Below are positions 6,150 to 60,659 of a stretch of 64,000 bases of DNA, one piece after another. The position numbers were made by a program, and so were the translations under genes. The stretch's first letter is position 1; each line of letters begins with the position of its first letter. Source of the stretch: Candidatus Jordarchaeales archaeon (GTDB lineage Archaea > Asgardarchaeota > Jordiarchaeia > Jordiarchaeales > Freyrarchaeaceae); assembly GCA_038889235.1 (NCBI GenBank), contig JAWAHN010000002.1:292288-356287 (forward strand), written 5' to 3'. Below the pieces are notes generated by a model. That model did not search any database and had not been told where the DNA came from. It was given only the letters and a program-made list of their open reading frames with translations.

Positions 6150-6241
6150 GGGCGGGTAGTCTAGCCTGGTTATGACGCCACACGAAAAGGGCGAAGCTTA
6201 CGACGTGGAGGTCCCAGGTTCGAATCCTGGCCCGCCCACCA
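6150..6241 (+). tRNA. tRNA-Val (anticodon UAC) with a 14-nt noncanonical intron
   Basis: Acceptor GGGCGGG (6150-6156) pairs with CCCGCCC (6231-6237), followed by discriminator A and an encoded CCA (6239-6241). The T arm is CCAGG-TTCGAAT-CCTGG and the D arm contains the archaeal tRNA-Val sequence GCCTGGTTATGACGCC. The anticodon arm reads as a tRNA only if 6182-6195 is removed. Then stem CCACG/CGTGG closes loop CTTACGA, giving anticodon TAC with U33. The intron therefore falls between positions 30 and 31, inside the anticodon stem, not at 37/38. A helix CGCC (6176-6179) with GGCG (6190-6193), flanked by three-base bulges at both cut sites, fits a relaxed bulge-helix-bulge for the splicing endonuclease. 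Confidence 0.93.
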
Positions 6242-51965: not shown

Positions 51966-52238
51966 CTACGATATTTCCATAGTCCTAGTGTTGCTTTCCA
52001 TGTCGTGGAATATTTTCAGCGTGACCTCTCTGTTTGGTGTCACCGTTACCTTCCCCGGAGCAACCTCCACTGTGCACCCGTCGATCTTCGCGCTCTTGAC
52101 GGATTCTTCAGTTACCGTGGCCTCCTCCCGCTTTCCCTCCTTTGAAACCTCCAGTATTATTGTGACCTGCCACCCCTCTCGTTCAGGAGTCAGTTCAATC
52201 CTGTGAAAGCGGTCATATGTAATCGTCTTCTTAACCAC
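51966..52238 (-). CDS. Small beta-rich protein of unknown function
   Basis: A 90-residue protein, apparently all beta with charged alternating strands (ITYDRFHRIELTPEREGWQV ... KVTVTPNREVTLKIF). I do not recognise it. GTG at 52238 has GAGGAGG nine bases upstream. It is divergent from the amidohydrolase gene. It could be a small Ig-like or Hsp20-like protein; neither is shown. Confidence 0.6.
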   Translation of the reverse strand: MVKKTITYDRFHRIELTPEREGWQVTIILEVSKEGKREEATVTEESVKSAKIDGCTVEVAPGKVTVTPNREVTLKIFHDMESNTRTMEIS

Positions 52239-52364: not shown

Positions 52365-53783
52365 GTGGGATTGAATTTGCTTGTTCTTGAAGGCGAAGAC
52401 GGGAGGAAAGTAAAGGTCTTCGTCGTCGACTTCCACACACACGTGGGAAAGGAAAAGGTCCTAGACGCCGTAGGGGAGGCCTTCCGCTCCAATACACCAA
52501 AACAAACAATAGACTTCTACCATAGGCTCCAATTCGAGTTAAAGGCGTGCATGAACTCCTCCCCCTCAAGTTACCGCTACAAGCTCGTCGAGCCGCTCAC
52601 AGAGCCCCCAAAAGCGTTGAAGTCTTTCTATGACTCTTTTGGTGGCATGTGGGGGTGGACGGTAGACCAGTTTGTTGCCTTCCCCTTCAACGACTACAGA
52701 GCCTACTCCACGAAGCCGGGCTTCATGATACCCAACGACATGGTCTTAAAGCGCTCGCTCACACTGCCATTCTCCCCTCGGATGCTTGGCTTCGTCAGGG
52801 TGGATCCGCACGACGGCGAGGGAGCCGTAAGAGAAGTTGAGAGGTGCGCTGCCGCGGGGGCGAGGGGGCTAAAACTCCACCCGATATCACAAGGCTTCCT
52901 CGACGAGGTGAACTCTAAGGAGGTGCAGGATGTTGTCATCGCAGCTATCAACAACGGGATGCCCGTTATCTTTGACTGCCGGTACTACGCGACAGCGGAG
53001 GACATTTATGAGCTCGTGCAGTCCATTCGAGGTGCAGTTAAAAGAGAGCGGTTTGCCGTAGTGCTTGCTCACTCGAGCATGGAGTACACGAAGAAAGGCC
53101 TCTACGATATACTAGGCGACCCGAACATATACGGTGATACGTCAGGTGTGAGGGGTGACGACGTGCAGGTCTTCCTCAAAATGCTTAGAAACAACTTGGG
53201 CGATGAGTGGTCTCGCAAAATTCTCTTTGGCACAGACTTCAACTACTTCACTATCCCGCAAGCGGTCGACTTTCTCTCTTATCTTTTCACCTGGGACTTT
53301 TACGATGAGCTCGACGCAAAGCTGAAAGACGTCGAACGTATACTTGCGGGGAATGCTCTCTCGATGATCAAGCCTCACATCGAGTCCCACGGGCACACTT
53401 GGGCGATGAAGTTTAGAGGGGAGGCCGGAGAGGCTTTCTCGAGGAACCTGCTCCATAGAGCAGGCTATGCTGCGTCGAAGAAGACGGTTGAGACATTAAC
53501 ATATGACCCAGTAGTTCAAGGAAGTGGGGTGGTGGACGCAGAAAGCTTCGTGCTATCACTCCGCCGTGCCGGAGGCGGGGGTTCGTCGCTGATCGTTAGG
53601 AGGGGAGCTAAAAAAACTTTAGTAGCACTTCTAAGCGTTTGTGATGTGGACGCAAGCTTAAGAGTGAGAAAAACATCCGGAGACTACACAAAAGTAATCC
53701 GGGGTGTGGTGTGGGGTAGTGTAGAGGTGGACAACGTCGGCGAAGCTGAGGAGCTGGCGGACAAATTGATTCGAGGTTTTTGA
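52365..53783 (+). CDS. Amidohydrolase-2-like metal hydrolase with C-terminal extension
   Basis: The first 330 or so residues look like a TIM-barrel amidohydrolase: VVDFHTHVGKEKV (metal HxH), GARGLKLHPISQGF (lysine ligand type), VLAHSSMEY, and ILFGTDFNYF (final Asp). Residues about 345-472 are not part of that barrel and I do not recognise them. Substrate unknown. GTG 52365 is the longest start; TTG 52371 is possible. A TATA-like TTTTTAAC lies near 52319. Separated by a promoter-like stretch from the VWA gene on the same strand. Confidence 0.8.
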   Translation: MGLNLLVLEGEDGRKVKVFVVDFHTHVGKEKVLDAVGEAFRSNTPKQTIDFYHRLQFELKACMNSSPSSYRYKLVEPLTEPPKALKSFYDSFGGMWGWTVDQFVAFPFNDYRAYSTKPGFMIPNDMVLKRSLTLPFSPRMLGFVRVDPHDGEGAVREVERCAAAGARGLKLHPISQGFLDEVNSKEVQDVVIAAINNGMPVIFDCRYYATAEDIYELVQSIRGAVKRERFAVVLAHSSMEYTKKGLYDILGDPNIYGDTSGVRGDDVQVFLKMLRNNLGDEWSRKILFGTDFNYFTIPQAVDFLSYLFTWDFYDELDAKLKDVERILAGNALSMIKPHIESHGHTWAMKFRGEAGEAFSRNLLHRAGYAASKKTVETLTYDPVVQGSGVVDAESFVLSLRRAGGGGSSLIVRRGAKKTLVALLSVCDVDASLRVRKTSGDYTKVIRGVVWGSVEVDNVGEAEELADKLIRGF

Positions 53784-53872: not shown

Positions 53873-55210
53873 GTGATTCAATTGTCCTTGAAACTTGAGG
53901 TTGTTAATGCTGGCGCTGCTGATGGGCGCGCATTTATGAACCCGAGCGACATGAAGCAGCTTGGAATAGACGACTTTGACATAGTCGTTTTCATTAACGA
54001 GTACGAGGACTGGGGTGCTGTCCAAGTTATATCTAAGAGCGACTGCCCTGAAGGCTACATAATGATTGACGAAGACGTGCTTGACTCGGCGAACGTTTCA
54101 GAAGGAGACGTAGTTACTGTCAAGAAGAAAAAGGCTAGAGGAGGGATAAAATACGTTCAACTGGGTGTTGAACCAATGGAGGGGCAACCTACAGAGGAGG
54201 TCGTCGTGTGGGTTGCGGATCACGTCAGTGATCTTGCCAGGATACTCAAGAAGAGGCCCATATACAGGAACCTCGAGGTCAGCTGGCGGGATGCTGAGTG
54301 TGGTTACATAAAGCTGAGGGTTCAGTCAACTAAGCCCGACCTCTCGGGTGAAGAGGTTGGAATAATCGATCCGACGGGGCACGAGGTCACGTTCGAAATA
54401 GTTCCAGCCCTCGACATGACGTTTAACGCGGTGCTCATGATAGACGTCTCCGGATCCATGCAGAAGAAGGATATGAGGCTTAAAAACGTCGACGGAGCAA
54501 TAGAAGGGCTGAAGAAGGGGATGCGTGAGACACAGCGCTTGAAGGAGTTCCTTGTAGGAATAGAGGAAGGTGGGGTAGTTAGCAGGATAAAGGCAGCCGC
54601 CCTCGCAACGCTGCTCTACTTGTCCTTGAAGATAGGGAGAGGGTGGGGTGAAAACGTTCAAGTCATAACGTTCGCCGAACAAGTTGAACCGTTAACCATA
54701 ACGGACAAGCAGGGAAGGCAGACGACAGTCATAAAGTGTACTGGGGAGAGTAAGGCTCTGGGGCTTGAAGCTATAGGAGAGTACATACTTGAAAAGTGCC
54801 AGGAGGGAAGTGGGTTAACGTTCATGAGCGGCGCATTAAAGAAGGCCGCCGAGTTAGCTGAACTGTTCCCTCCTAACCCAAAGACCGGAAAACCTTATCC
54901 TGTGATGTTCGTCCTGCTCTCCGACGGGTATCCAAACACCGGGGACGAGGAAGCAGGAATCCCGGTCAACCCGATACCTATAGTGCGCGACTACTTCTCC
55001 CAGAAAACAGATTGGGTACTCTACACTATAGGAATTGGAGAAGCGGACATGGAGCTCATGCGCAGACTGGCAGAGATAGGGAGGGGTGAGGCATTCAAAG
55101 CTGACGACTTCGGCGATCTGGCACGGTGGTACGACATGTTGGCGCAGCGCTTCGCGATAACGGTAAAAACGACCCCTTCACAGTTTGCTGCAGAAGTCTC
55201 TGAAACATAA
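53873..55210 (+). CDS. VWA-domain protein with Cdc48-like N domain
   Basis: A 445-residue protein in three parts. Residues 1-87 look like the Cdc48/p97 N-terminal double-psi barrel (LEVVNAGAADGRAFMNPSDM, LGIDDFDIVVF, SEGDVVTVKKKK). Residues 94-175 resemble the second Cdc48 N subdomain (LKKRPIYRNLEV, KLRVQSTKP, GIIDPTGHEVTF). From about 183 a von Willebrand A domain carries a full MIDAS: D191-x-S193-x-S195, T316 and D351 (LLSDGYPNTGD). There is no AAA+ ATPase and no signal peptide, so it is likely an intracellular binding or adaptor protein. The subdomain call is by pattern, not by search. It converges with the amidoligase gene. Confidence 0.8.
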   Translation: MIQLSLKLEVVNAGAADGRAFMNPSDMKQLGIDDFDIVVFINEYEDWGAVQVISKSDCPEGYIMIDEDVLDSANVSEGDVVTVKKKKARGGIKYVQLGVEPMEGQPTEEVVVWVADHVSDLARILKKRPIYRNLEVSWRDAECGYIKLRVQSTKPDLSGEEVGIIDPTGHEVTFEIVPALDMTFNAVLMIDVSGSMQKKDMRLKNVDGAIEGLKKGMRETQRLKEFLVGIEEGGVVSRIKAAALATLLYLSLKIGRGWGENVQVITFAEQVEPLTITDKQGRQTTVIKCTGESKALGLEAIGEYILEKCQEGSGLTFMSGALKKAAELAELFPPNPKTGKPYPVMFVLLSDGYPNTGDEEAGIPVNPIPIVRDYFSQKTDWVLYTIGIGEADMELMRRLAEIGRGEAFKADDFGDLARWYDMLAQRFAITVKTTPSQFAAEVSET

Positions 55211-55359
55211 AGACGCTGCCTGTAGCGCACAGGGCCTAAAGCGACTTCGAAGCTGGGAGAACCCCCGCACCCTCCAAAATTTTTAGTACGCAAATGCAGT
55301 TAACGGGGAACCTCACCCTTGGTGAGGTTAAAGCACTCCATCCTAAACTTGGCTCAAAA

Positions 55360-58300
55360 CTAGTTCGCCGAATCAAACACTTTTACGAGCTTCACTTCAT
55401 GCCTGGGTGTCTGCACTACTTCAGATGGTAGTAGTTTATCTTTCACGTAGACTAATGCTTCCAGCGTGACTATTGTGGTGTTAGGTACCTGCGGGGGCTT
55501 CCACGCCACACTTACCGTTTTCTCCTGCTGCTTAATCTCTCCGCTCCAAACTTTCCGTGTTTTCGTCAGAACCCTCGCAGTTAAGACAACCTTAATCGGT
55601 TGCGCCACTTTCTTCTTAACGTTGAATGCCAGTTTACTCTCTTTTCTCTCCTCCAGCATGGACGGGAGCTTGGTGAATGCGACCTTCACGAGAGGGCTGG
55701 TTGGCGGGCTTACCATGAACATTGGAGAAGTCTCCGTTAGCACGAAGGAGCCTTCCTGCGTTTTGAACTGTAGCATGGCTTGCAAGTACGTCTTCTTTCC
55801 CGCAAGCCACGGTGGAATCTCAATTTTCCCGTGAACCTTCACTCCCTTCCTAGGTTTAAGCTCAAGGCTTAACTTCTCCTCAACCTCAACTTCCCCCTGA
55901 AGTGTAAAAAGGCGGACCACCCCTCTAGCTTTTACCTGCCGCTCAGCGGCATTCTCTGCTTCGAACTCATACGCGACCTGACCACCAGCTTGCACATCCC
56001 TCACTCTAAGTGTTACCTCACTGATGGTAATCGGGGGACGAGGAGTTACATTAACCTCGACTTCTTCACTATAAACCCTAGCTCCGTCTGCCTCCAAACT
56101 TATCTTTAACTTGTGCCTTCCCTTCTCCTCCCAGGCTTTGACTGTCAGTGGCAAAACATGCATCCCTTCGTCCACGACATACTCCTTCGACGTCACGGAT
56201 CCGGCCGTCAACGAAACACTTAGCTTTACCGGCTTCATAACCCCTTCAACTCTCACTTTGAGCTTCACCACAATGGTCGACGACGCTGCAACATTCTTCG
56301 GGCACTCGATGCCGGAAACCTTGACCGCCTTCTTAGGCGGAAGAGCGGTAACATGAACGACCCCCGTCTTACACTCCGCTAGAACCTCCTCACCATGAAC
56401 TACACGGCACACGAAGGCGAAGCTCCCCTCCGTAACATCCTTGCCAACCTTAACCTTGCAGGACAGCCTCTTTGACTGCTTCACAACAAGCTCCCTATAA
56501 TCCATTAGCCTCCTCTCCCTTCCCTCCAGGAAGATCTCAGCAAAGAAGGGGCCCGCAACGTCTGGGTTCAAGTTCACAACTTCGAAAACCGCCTTGCAAG
56601 TCTCACCCCACTTAACCACGTGCTTGGAAACACTACCGGAAACACTCAACCGAGGTCTAAGGGAAATATGTGAGACGTCGATGGCTCTTGAAACATGGGC
56701 CGCAGCGACTGCTGTTTTGCTCTCTGCACGCTCCACCCTTCTACGTGAAGAGGGCTGAATACGAGTGAGCTTTGACTGCTTTGCTGTCTTCACAGCCCTC
56801 TCTGCCTTAGTTCTATCCTGAACGACAGGAGTTTTAGGCTTCGCAACGCTTACCTGTGCTTCTCGCCTAACTTGTGCCGTTGGCGGGGTAAGCCTGGTGA
56901 CTACTATAACCTTTGGCTTAGCCTCTGCCTCTCTAATGGTTACAGCCTCTTTCTTCTTGGCCTCCGCTGTCTGTGCGACAAGTTCCTGTCTTGTTGCGGT
57001 GGTCTTTGTTTCCACTGCTGCTACACTTGGCCTTTCAACTCTCACCACCGGGGTTTTATATTCTGCCACTGTTTCCCCCATGTAGAGTACTTGAAACCTA
57101 AGTGTGTACTCCCCCTCCTCGCCCGACGGAATAGGCACACTCACTACCGCAGGGATGTTTATCTTTTTCGTCAGAATAGGGGATATCTTTCCACCCTTTT
57201 CCGCTGTAACAACTAGTTTGTACTCCCCTCTAAACTCGGGAGGCCTACTCTCGACCTTCACCTTAAGCTCCCTAGTCTCCCCCACTCTGACGGTTTTAGG
57301 CGTGGTCCCAACAGTCACCTTCACGTTAGGTATCGCGGTGGCTTTAAACGTCCTAGTTTCTGCTTCGCAGCCCCCCACTCCCTCACCTTTCAAGGCAAAC
57401 TTCAGACGGCACGTCTTAGTTCCATGGAACGCTTTGAGAGGGATTTTGAGGGGGAGCTGCGAGCTCGTGACAATAACAGTCTTACCTTTCCTCAAAAATA
57501 TCTTCTTCACAGCCGTCTGGATCGTCTCGCTTTCATCGGCGAAGGTCACCTTCGCCACGAGCGTTGCCTGCGCATCCCCATCGCTGCTCACTTCAACAGT
57601 GAATGGTATGATCTCCTCTGCAACCACCATGGACGCTGTCGTCTCTGCTTTCATCGACACCTTGACCGCTAGCTTTGGTTTCTCTACAGATTCCACCCTT
57701 GCCTCTCCGAACGCTTCGATCAACGGGTCCCCTGGACCCGTGCAATACTTCCTAGTGATCTCCATCAAGCTGCGGGCTACGACCCCCATGTCTCCCCCCG
57801 AGCTACTGTAGAGGTATAGCAGGTAGTCTGCAGGGGAGCACGGGGGTTCAAGCTTATCTGAACCGTAGACGGATACAAGGAAAGGCTTGAGGTAGTCTTG
57901 GAACCCAAGCTCATCTACTTCCTCCTCAACGTACTTTAGCATCCCCCGGACGGCTTCGAAAAGCTTAGAGTAGGGCTCTCCTGAAGGAGAGGTGTTGTAG
58001 AATGATGCCTCCTTCTCCTTGAGCCCCTTGTCCGGGAAAAACTTCCCCATTAAACCATAGAGTATCGCTTTTTCCCTGTTCTCAACTACCACGCTCGAGC
58101 TGACCCTTGGAACCCTAACTCCTTTACTTGCTAGTTTGACCGCTTTGAGCGCCAGCGCCTGTAGGAGAGCTACAAGCGCCAACCTTCTTGCTGCACTGAA
58201 CTGTGAGTCGAAGACTCTGACCTCTATTGTTCCATAGTCTGTGAAGGGGAAAACGTCAACGTACCTGTCATCCGGCGGCTCCCTCATAACTACAGAGTCA

Positions 58301-59061
58301 AAAGCTCTCCTATCCAGTGACTCTAAGTAGGGTATGTAGTGGTCTTTGTCTGCGGGCCCCATCTGGCTCGTGTTGTACTTAAGCCTTATGTCTCGAACAC
58401 AGTCCTTTCCGATTATGAAGACTTTACCCTTCCTCTGAACTTTGACAGTCCCAGTAACCCCTTCCCTGATGAATGGAGAGTTCACCGTGAGAGCTATCAG
58501 GTGAGGGACAAATGCGCGTATCATGTTGTACACAGCTGGTGCTTCCTCTTTGCTCACTCCCACGTGGTAGTGGTCTCCAAAGGTTACCCCGCTCCTATAC
58601 TCTTCCTCGAAGGGGTTGAAACCTATAGAAATCAAGTGGTATCCTGAAGGGAGGGAGTCGTATGCCACGCTATAGAGCGTTTTAATCCACCATTCAAGCT
58701 CCTCCATAAATCTGCACGGAGGAGTTACGAGCTCCAAGATCCAGGTTATCTGGCTCACGTTCGGGTCTGGTCCGAGAACGTCGACGTCGGCAGCTCCACG
58801 AGGGGTCCTATAGGAGACCACAACGTAAGGTAGTCTCTTCCCCCTTCTCTCTTTCTCACTAAAAGAGACGTTAATGACGTTATCTGAAACCTCAGCTGGC
58901 GCGTCCGCGACAGCCTTCTGCAAGTTTTTCAAAGCGTTCCCCATAAGGTGCTTCCACACTTGGATTAGGGTTGCCCCACGTAGCAGTCTACCCTTTGAGT
59001 CGACCACTTGAACCTCCATCTCTATTCCTTGAGTGAAGGGGAGCTTGTGCATTTCAACCAC
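55360..59061 (-). CDS. GCS2-type carboxylate-amine ligase fused to Ig-like repeats
   Basis: A 1233-residue protein. Residues 1 to about 440 match the glutamate-cysteine-ligase 2/amidoligase fold: GIEMEV (E14, E16), ITWILELVTPP (E110), FGDHYHVGV (H164, H166) and GTIEVRVFDSQ (E280, R282, D285), so catalysis looks intact. The rest (about 450-1233) is beta-rich, Ig/CARDB-like modules separated by a Lys/Thr/Ala linker around 720-810. There is no signal peptide or membrane segment. GTG 59061 is the longest start; ATG 59052 is possible. It begins nine bases after the coiled-coil gene stop, so is its operon partner. Substrates are unknown; a peptide or protein tag is an inference. Confidence 0.85.
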   Translation of the reverse strand: MVEMHKLPFTQGIEMEVQVVDSKGRLLRGATLIQVWKHLMGNALKNLQKAVADAPAEVSDNVINVSFSEKERRGKRLPYVVVSYRTPRGAADVDVLGPDPNVSQITWILELVTPPCRFMEELEWWIKTLYSVAYDSLPSGYHLISIGFNPFEEEYRSGVTFGDHYHVGVSKEEAPAVYNMIRAFVPHLIALTVNSPFIREGVTGTVKVQRKGKVFIIGKDCVRDIRLKYNTSQMGPADKDHYIPYLESLDRRAFDSVVMREPPDDRYVDVFPFTDYGTIEVRVFDSQFSAARRLALVALLQALALKAVKLASKGVRVPRVSSSVVVENREKAILYGLMGKFFPDKGLKEKEASFYNTSPSGEPYSKLFEAVRGMLKYVEEEVDELGFQDYLKPFLVSVYGSDKLEPPCSPADYLLYLYSSSGGDMGVVARSLMEITRKYCTGPGDPLIEAFGEARVESVEKPKLAVKVSMKAETTASMVVAEEIIPFTVEVSSDGDAQATLVAKVTFADESETIQTAVKKIFLRKGKTVIVTSSQLPLKIPLKAFHGTKTCRLKFALKGEGVGGCEAETRTFKATAIPNVKVTVGTTPKTVRVGETRELKVKVESRPPEFRGEYKLVVTAEKGGKISPILTKKINIPAVVSVPIPSGEEGEYTLRFQVLYMGETVAEYKTPVVRVERPSVAAVETKTTATRQELVAQTAEAKKKEAVTIREAEAKPKVIVVTRLTPPTAQVRREAQVSVAKPKTPVVQDRTKAERAVKTAKQSKLTRIQPSSRRRVERAESKTAVAAAHVSRAIDVSHISLRPRLSVSGSVSKHVVKWGETCKAVFEVVNLNPDVAGPFFAEIFLEGRERRLMDYRELVVKQSKRLSCKVKVGKDVTEGSFAFVCRVVHGEEVLAECKTGVVHVTALPPKKAVKVSGIECPKNVAASSTIVVKLKVRVEGVMKPVKLSVSLTAGSVTSKEYVVDEGMHVLPLTVKAWEEKGRHKLKISLEADGARVYSEEVEVNVTPRPPITISEVTLRVRDVQAGGQVAYEFEAENAAERQVKARGVVRLFTLQGEVEVEEKLSLELKPRKGVKVHGKIEIPPWLAGKKTYLQAMLQFKTQEGSFVLTETSPMFMVSPPTSPLVKVAFTKLPSMLEERKESKLAFNVKKKVAQPIKVVLTARVLTKTRKVWSGEIKQQEKTVSVAWKPPQVPNTTIVTLEALVYVKDKLLPSEVVQTPRHEVKLVKVFDSAN

Positions 59062-59070
59062 TCGCCAAAC

Positions 59071-60576
59071 CTAGATGTCAACAGCTGGTTTTAAATAATG
59101 GTCGATGTAGCTCTTCGCCTCATCCGCCTCCCTCCTCCTCAACACTCCTGAATCAACCAGCACGCTTATCCCTCGCGAGAAAAGGGAGGCAGCCTCGGGG
59201 TTCAGGAGGTAGTTGAACTTCTTCAGTCCAGAGGCTATAGCACCCCACACTTCTTCTCTGAGGCTCAAGCTAACTATAGACTCAAGCTGGGAAGAGACTG
59301 CAACGCCGCCAGCTTCAACAACTATAGGGGGAATTACGTCGACAACTTCTTTTCCCCCAGCAAGCCTGTAGGCGAAGAAGGGCACGTACACAGTCGCCGG
59401 AAGCTTCCCGGGGAAAGTTGAAGCGGGAACGAGGAACGAAGAGTTTGCCTCGACACGAGACCTAGCTTGGGAAAGCCACTCCCTGGAGATCTCCTCGTAC
59501 TCCCTCTTCTGCCTGACCGCCTCGAGGAAGACCTGCTTCACCCGCCTGACTTCCTGGTTTACATCCTCAATCTCTCTTTCCAACTCTTTAAGTATTCTTT
59601 CCTCCTCTTTCTGAAACTCTTTTTCAGCCTTTTTCTTGAGCCGCTCTTTCTCCCTTTCAAAGCGCTCCCTGCGGCCGAGGTAATCCAAGTACTCCCTCTC
59701 AACTCTGGAGAACTCCTCAATGGCTTCTTCGAGCGAATCTATAACTGCCCTTATCCTCTCCAAGGTTAACTCGGGCTCCCCTCCAGACGTAGCCTCTGAA
59801 ATAGCCTTCTCCAACTTCTCAATATACCGCGAGAGGGGAAAAGTGCTCGGCGGGCTCTCAGAAAACTTCAACGCCTCTATTCTTTTAACTTCCATCTCAA
59901 ACTTAGCCCTCTCCTCCTCCACTCTCCCCTGAGCCTTCTCCTTAATTCTCTGCTTCTCCTCCTCAGCTTTCCTCTCGGCCTCCTCAATTTCTTCCCTGTA
60001 GCGGGCCAGCGTTTCATCGATAATTCTCAAGTTCTCCCTGAAAACCTCGGCAAAGTGGTTCACGTTCTCTTTTGTGAGCACGGTAAAAGACGACAAAGTC
60101 TCGCTTGCAGCCTTTAGGGAGATCCTTTCTGGGACCAACTCGTCAGGCTTGACATTCCACCGCTCCACATGTTGAAGTCTCTCGGTGAGCGCGGTGAGCG
60201 CCGGGCCGCTGACGAGTCCCGGCACGTTGGCTTTGAGGGGCTTAACCTGTCGTTTGAGAGACGAAACCCTCAGCTTTAGCGCCTCAGTAAATGATTCCAA
60301 ACGAGCCTCGTCAAAGTCTTTGAAGGATGAAAGGTGAGGCGAGTAGAAAACTGAGCCTGAAAGTGAAGCTGTCGCCTCAACGGCCACCATGCTCTCCCCA
60401 TCAACTGGGATAAGGTGTATCGGGAAAAAGAACTTCGAAACAGACACGAGTTCGCCGCCGGAAGATTTCTTCCAAATTAAGAAGAATGCCAGCGCAACCT
60501 CGACAGCGTCAGCGTACTTCGAGGGGAAGAACTCCCTTCTCTGAAGCACAAACGGCACTGAAAATATTTCAACCAA
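59071..60576 (-). CDS. Coiled-coil protein, operon partner of the amidoligase
   Basis: A 501-residue protein I do not recognise. A mixed N-terminal domain (about 1-150) is followed by two long coiled coils (about 185-240 and 275-375, rich in EEAERKAEEEKQRIK and EREKERLKKKAEKE) and a C-terminal globular domain (about 400-500; FLVPASTFPGKLPATVYVPFFAYRLAGG). The frame opens at ATG 60597, but a TATA-like TAAATATTT at 60604-60612 is too near; TTG 60576 fits better. No ATPase motif is seen, so it is not an SMC-type motor. It is probably a scaffold or partner for the ligase. Confidence 0.75.
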   Translation of the reverse strand: MVEIFSVPFVLQRREFFPSKYADAVEVALAFFLIWKKSSGGELVSVSKFFFPIHLIPVDGESMVAVEATASLSGSVFYSPHLSSFKDFDEARLESFTEALKLRVSSLKRQVKPLKANVPGLVSGPALTALTERLQHVERWNVKPDELVPERISLKAASETLSSFTVLTKENVNHFAEVFRENLRIIDETLARYREEIEEAERKAEEEKQRIKEKAQGRVEEERAKFEMEVKRIEALKFSESPPSTFPLSRYIEKLEKAISEATSGGEPELTLERIRAVIDSLEEAIEEFSRVEREYLDYLGRRERFEREKERLKKKAEKEFQKEEERILKELEREIEDVNQEVRRVKQVFLEAVRQKREYEEISREWLSQARSRVEANSSFLVPASTFPGKLPATVYVPFFAYRLAGGKEVVDVIPPIVVEAGGVAVSSQLESIVSLSLREEVWGAIASGLKKFNYLLNPEAASLFSRGISVLVDSGVLRRREADEAKSYIDHYLKPAVDI

Positions 60577-60659
60577 TCCCAGGCGGCCTCCATGCATCTT
60601 ACAAAATATTTAGGTGAAATGTGGCAATTTTAAAATAGTTGTTCTCTGGAGGTCCAAAG

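Follow-up and report, generated by a model that had tools for sequence, protein, structure and literature searches.

An amidohydrolase, an amidoligase and a protein joining a Cdc48-type N domain to a VWA domain form a conserved core of genes in Asgard archaea, and we tentatively favor the reading that they act inside the cell as writer, eraser and adaptor of an amide modification carried by a protein or peptide. The window, i.e., the whole stretch of 64,000 nucleotides of Ca. Jordarchaeum DNA that was analyzed, had been described in an earlier note as holding a candidate system of three genes, coding for a Cdc48-N–VWA protein, an amidoligase with an Ig-like tail, and a coiled-coil partner. All three are indeed present as ORFs at the places given (position 60576, taken as one end of the coiled-coil gene, is an alternative start), with a 9-base gap between the ligase and coiled-coil genes and with the VWA gene converging on the amidoligase gene across 149 bases. 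Overlooked at that time were a PF04909 amidohydrolase gene, 89 bases upstream of the VWA gene and on the same strand, and a gene for a small protein at 51966-52238 (−). The features of the locus are as follows:

51966..52238, − strand: small protein, 90 aa, encoded divergently to the amidohydrolase; conserved beside this locus in Jordarchaeia
52365..53783, + strand: amidohydrolase, PF04909, TIM-barrel metal hydrolase, 472 aa (Pfam 2.5e-10)
53873..55210, + strand: Cdc48-N–VWA protein, 445 aa (Pfam CDC48_N and VWA)
about 53873-54412, + strand: Cdc48-N part of this protein (Nn double-psi barrel plus Nc)
about 54413-55162, + strand: VWA part of this protein
55360-59061, − strand: amidoligase, whole gene (GCS2)
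57712..59061, − strand: GCS2/YbdK-type catalytic domain of the amidoligase, residues 1-450 (GCS2 1.9e-8)
55360..57711, − strand: amidoligase tail at the C-terminus, with tandem repeats of a beta-sandwich (Ig-like) type (profile self-alignment)
59071..60597, − strand: coiled-coil protein of 508 aa, its gene separated by 9 bases from the amidoligase gene downstream

The statement that no described system with this gene set was known agrees with our literature searches, which covered sources other than subscription journals and preprints and returned no description of it. Elsewhere in the window, ARAGORN reported a tRNA-like gene at 6150-6241 whose anticodon has two bases (tRNA-???); it may be an intron-containing or spurious tRNA.

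Distribution, linkage and duplication of the gene set

We surveyed 228 Asgard genomes using cut-offs chosen for each family. All three core genes were present in 112 genomes, one or two in 29, and none in 87. Pairwise co-occurrence of the core genes was strong (Fisher p < 1e-35), a value that is descriptive because it ignores phylogeny and the genomes are incomplete. The core genes were neighbors in at least four class-level groups: Jordarchaeia, Helarchaeota, Thorarchaeia, and families f19 and f21 (taken as Heimdallarchaeia, a class name assigned by inference). Linkage across distant genomes, proposed earlier as the check on a common function, was thus found for the VWA and amidoligase genes; the coiled-coil gene was restricted to Jordarchaeia, and the place of the third core gene falls to the amidohydrolase.

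Within Jordarchaeia, loci of the window type recur in the same genus and in a sister family, and the source genome carries a second, paralogous locus with amidohydrolase, VWA, amidoligase, F4 and F7 genes. The order is VWA, Ig/F4-like, amidoligase, amidohydrolase in Helarchaeota; amidohydrolase, amidoligase and VWA are contiguous in f19; and in f21 the amidoligase and amidohydrolase genes are adjacent, with the VWA gene within 15 kb (a Ras-family GTPase gene lies between hydrolase and VWA). The VWA and amidohydrolase genes are adjacent in Thorarchaeia, lying within 5 kb of each other in 37/37 genomes having both, with the amidoligase gene 10–12 kb off where all are on one contig. Amidoligase and amidohydrolase genes lie within 5 kb in 38/47 Lokiarchaeaceae, 11/11 members of families f22-26, 6/6 of f19 and 9/9 of f21, and the amidohydrolase directly follows the amidoligase in most Lokiarchaeota loci. 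The exception is the VWA gene of Lokiarchaeaceae, which in most cases lies on a different contig or at a distance of tens of kb, and our count took in only part of the VWA places so that unlinked cases are under-counted.

Some Lokiarchaeota loci also hold VWA, Roadblock/LC7, gelsolin-like and Ig-like proteins, and Roadblock/LC7 and gelsolin-like genes sit beside the VWA gene in several Lokiarchaeia lineages (loci L109, L124, L128, L166, L170). Among possible links between the F4, F5, F7, gelsolin and Roadblock families, only one was modestly supported, joining F4 to the C-terminal domain of the Ig-like protein from Loki genomes. Genes resembling undecaprenyl-diphosphate synthase (UPPS) and HMG-CoA synthase are syntenic upstream of the amidoligase in Lokiarchaeaceae (L089 and others). 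Amidoligase loci of the Sigynarchaeota type (L135-L137, L121) have no adjacent amidohydrolase and hold a TPR/PIN-like protein and a protein that, by eye, looks related to the Loki Ig-like partner in its C-terminal domain. Between the VWA and amidohydrolase genes of the Jordarchaeia sister family lies a gene for a small protein (F17) that appears to span the membrane several times (L044, L045, L047, L049; one copy appears split).

As far as tested, the module is Asgard-specific: one motif-based scan, which missed most Thorarchaeia copies, found no convincing case outside the Asgards. Asgard-type loci were seen on contigs labeled Anoxychlamydiales (JAAKFN010000090.1, L131), Methanomassiliicoccales (DAOVGM010000081.1, L132) and Bathyarchaeota (WJJB01000489.1, L121), which are probably misbinned or misnamed.

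The amidoligase and VWA trees (the latter with long-branch warnings) both split into A and B groups with 100/100 support. The A group, to which the window belongs, holds Jordarchaeia A, the Sigyn-like family f27, f19 and f21, and the B group holds Jordarchaeia B, Thorarchaeia and Hel/Loki sequences. The amidohydrolase tree, from which f27 was left out, supports Jordarchaeia A with f19/f21 and Jordarchaeia B with Hel/Loki, and is compatible with the same split when read unrooted. The shared split and the compatible third tree suggest that the module was duplicated as one unit before these lineages diverged.

The coiled-coil protein gave only sub-threshold coiled-coil matches in Pfam, had no counterpart in the other classes tested, and a scan of genome contigs with it found nothing; its gene was rejected as a core member since the family is confined to Jordarchaeia, and the protein is an accessory. 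PADLOC likewise gave only coiled-coil background matches, and identity as a defense system was rejected. The 90-aa protein belongs to a family conserved near the module in both Jordarchaeia families. We rejected it as a tag because its C-terminus is variable (...EIS/EVSQ/EITT) and ends in no conserved Gly-Gly, Glu or Gln, and because it is also confined to Jordarchaeia. In the neighborhoods examined, we recognized no genes next to the module for a tag (Pup- or ubiquitin-like), an AAA unfoldase or a proteasome; unrelated small proteins might conceivably serve as tags.

The core proteins and a fused paralogue

The GCS2 domain of the amidoligase scored above the Pfam gathering threshold, and the model of its catalytic domain (pLDDT 90.7) was closest in Foldseek to YbdK (1tt4/1r8g; E 6e-17 to 2e-16), followed by glutamate-cysteine ligases (GCL) and then by PafA/Dop. 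GxExE, E-x-x-T, HxH and ExRxxD are kept in the homologues compared, as are throughout the residues aligned with the YbdK motifs, except that His187 varies (Ala or Gln in a few). The GS/GCL fold and the Mg-ATP motif residues place the protein in the GCS2/YbdK carboxylate-amine ligase superfamily. It is not a member of the YbdK family proper (TIGR02050, 78.4 vs. a cut-off of 176.4 bits), and PafA/Dop is not its closest fold. The Ig-like nature of its tail is plausible, though weak at the sequence level: profile self-alignment revealed internal repeats (E about 1e-9), whereas ASH/CARDB/Cep192-type matches were weak and sub-threshold, and a comparison with the PDB gave no confident match.

The Cdc48-N reading of the VWA protein holds at the fold level. 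The Pfam CDC48_N match was 1e-8 (35.7 bits; cut-off 35.1), and the predicted model (pLDDT 80.9; pTM 0.61, so that the inter-domain arrangement is uncertain) matched isolated p97/VAT (Cdc48) N domains along both subdomains, i.e., the Nn double-psi barrel and the Nc beta-clam, with TMt of 0.65–0.72 (5epp, 0.72; 4rv0, 0.71). The Nc Pfam model PF02933 did not match. By sequence, the barrel also resembles FwdD, and Cdc48-like recognition of tagged proteins should therefore not be assumed. The VWA domain matched Pfam above the gathering score (1.8e-6), and its MIDAS residues (DxSxS, T and D), expected from the earlier note, are conserved in all stand-alone proteins with a complete VWA domain. Foldseek also aligned DEPDC5 over the whole protein with the highest query TM among the 50 matches listed (0.35–0.38); sequence profiles gave no match to DEPDC5 or the Pfam IML1 family, and we treat this likeness as a lead. 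Apparent recoding of an in-frame TAG in VWA matches was rejected, as the alignments simply continue for a few residues beyond the natural stop. Another Cdc48N-VWA paralogue, the third (type C; L040:6835-9857), directly adjoins a gene for a radical SAM protein with an HMPTM zinc ribbon, and the two genes are also close together in other Jordarchaeia (L057, L063).

The amidohydrolase carries the TIM-barrel metal ligands HxH, H and D of the PF04909 superfamily, and D22, H24, H26, K170, H172, H236 and D291 are kept in the stand-alone homologues compared, except for two with incomplete N-termini. Its profile matched nothing in the PDB, and a single-sequence search found decarboxylases as nearest sequences, so amide hydrolysis by this protein is only putative. 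No hydrophobic segment or signal peptide is apparent in the three core proteins.

Jordarchaeia (about 850 aa) and Thorarchaeia also encode a paralogue, 848 to 893 aa, in which a degenerate amidohydrolase is fused to Cdc48N–VWA. The gene in the source genome is at about 269413-271956 of contig JAWAHN010000002.1 (L038:4414-6957); further fusion loci are L055 and L158-L160, and the fusion genes lie next to active copies. The fusion supports the view that the amidohydrolase and the VWA protein work together. The catalytic and MIDAS residues, intact in the stand-alone proteins, have disappeared from the fusion alone, which fits a scaffold; the fused protein is probably a catalytically dead scaffold or decoy. 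In both groups, the fusion gene has SPFH/Band-7 genes nearby.

Possible roles of the module

The module itself is well supported; its chemistry is inferred, with two active enzymes that would oppose each other on a macromolecular substrate. The amidoligase would act as the writer, joining a carboxylate to an amine using ATP, and the amidohydrolase as an eraser or trimmer that hydrolyzes this or a related bond, which would make the reaction reversible. The Cdc48-N–VWA protein would be the adaptor, recognizing the modified or unmodified target and bringing the enzymes to it through the MIDAS and the Cdc48-N surface, while the dead fusion of Jordarchaeia and Thorarchaeia could provide a scaffold or decoy. 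The target would most likely be a protein or peptide and not a small metabolite. Consistent with modification are the linkage in four class-level groups, the co-occurrence, the A/B split, the fusion, the intact active sites, a ligase of GS/GCL fold whose structural neighbors include PafA and Dop, the predominance of binding modules (Ig-like tail, Cdc48-N and VWA, besides the Roadblock and gelsolin-like neighbors in Loki genomes), and core proteins with no apparent hydrophobic segment or signal peptide. Against it stand the YbdK-like ligase fold, the decarboxylases nearest to the amidohydrolase in the PDB, the lack of a tag, AAA unfoldase or proteasome gene beside the module, the usual location of the Lokiarchaeaceae VWA gene elsewhere, and the Sigynarchaeota amidoligase locus with no adjacent hydrolase.

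The main rival is a small-molecule pathway, which we consider somewhat unlikely: the amidoligase would make a gamma-glutamyl or other amide metabolite (a thiol or cofactor tail), the amidohydrolase would process it, and the VWA protein would be a chaperone or metal-insertion-type helper. YbdK/GCL is the closest fold and sequence family of the ligase, PF04909 includes small-molecule decarboxylases and hydrolases, and GshA-type matches are noted in some Asgard genomes (PMC7278568). However, a pathway of metabolite synthesis would not usually involve large Ig-like tails, Cdc48-N and VWA domains and a dead scaffold formed by fusion, the ligase falls far under the YbdK cut-off (78 vs. 176 bits), and no thiol- or cofactor-pathway neighbor is common to all classes.

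Less probable still is a GTPase-linked scaffold built like the NTD and SABA domains of DEPDC5 in GATOR1; the protein that the enzymes modify would be a small GTPase or a Roadblock partner. The whole-length DEPDC5 alignment, the Roadblock and gelsolin-like genes adjoining VWA in Loki lineages, and the Ras-family GTPase gene of f21 speak for it, but TM-scores are low, the arrangement of domains in the model is uncertain, and sequence matches to DEPDC5 or IML1 are lacking. Asgard genomes carry many small GTPases, and proximity to one is therefore weak evidence. A further reading, and a long shot, is a pan-Asgard protein tagging/untagging system, independent of ubiquitin and Pup, with a recognition subunit of DEPDC5 architecture linked to Roadblock/GTPase and gelsolin-like proteins, possibly an archaeal forerunner of GATOR1-type regulation.

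That the VWA, amidoligase and coiled-coil genes form the functional unit, as first proposed, is very improbable: the 9-base spacing favors it, but no class other than Jordarchaeia has the coil family, whereas the amidohydrolase occurs, and is linked, throughout, and the distribution leaves the coil only the place of a Jordarchaeia-specific subunit. Chance or general synteny, to which the syntenic UPPS and HMG-CoA synthase genes of Lokiarchaeaceae might point, we practically dismiss, since the same three families stay together despite reshuffled gene order between classes, two of them are fused, and the genes co-occur and form two separate paralogous loci in one genome.

Comparison with known systems

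In MoxR–VWA type chaperone systems, a VWA protein is encoded in an operon with enzymes; the module likewise pairs the two, and no MoxR AAA gene was identified beside it. YbdK is a small-molecule gamma-Glu:Cys ligase. With the YbdK/GCS2 ligases (1r8g, 1tt4; TIGR02050) the Asgard amidoligase has in common the catalytic fold and GxExE, HxH and ExRxxD; unlike them, it scores far below the family cut-off, bears a long Ig-like tail in its Jord-, Thor- and Heimdall-type forms, and sits in a conserved operon with a hydrolase and Cdc48N-VWA. Pupylation likewise combines a GS/GCL-fold amide ligase (PafA) with an enzyme that undoes the bond (Dop), as the module possibly does. In contrast, the putative eraser here is a metal hydrolase of the unrelated TIM-barrel type, linkage to Pup or a proteasome was not recognized, and PafA/Dop rank structurally below YbdK and GCL.

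As in Cdc48/p97/VAT, both Nn and Nc are predicted in the VWA protein and are joined to a partner module; unlike in these proteins, the partner is a VWA domain instead of AAA domains, and Nc is missed by the Pfam sequence model.

The genes, which travel together, code for an enzyme suited to forming an amide bond, one of a family able to break such a bond, and a two-part binding protein, and they look like an undescribed machine; early duplication and conservation in several Asgard classes of a set with ligase, hydrolase and adaptor folds point to a basic cell function. If proteins are its targets, the module would add a third amide-tagging chemistry of prokaryotes to the ubiquitin-like and Pup systems, and this in the lineage nearest to eukaryotes, as Asgard archaea are their closest known relatives. 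DEPDC5/Iml1 of GATOR1 places a Cdc48/NSF-N-like domain before a VWA/Sec23-trunk-like one, an order that the VWA protein may share, its NTD resembling Sec18/NSF N and its SABA domain Sec23 (PMC8534245). The VWA protein matches DEPDC5/Iml1 along its whole length at low TM; no sequence similarity between the two was detected, and the VWA protein has no SHEN, DEP or CTD and keeps its MIDAS intact. Its DEPDC5-like architecture would offer a concrete link to the origin of nutrient-signaling complexes, one that is open to testing.
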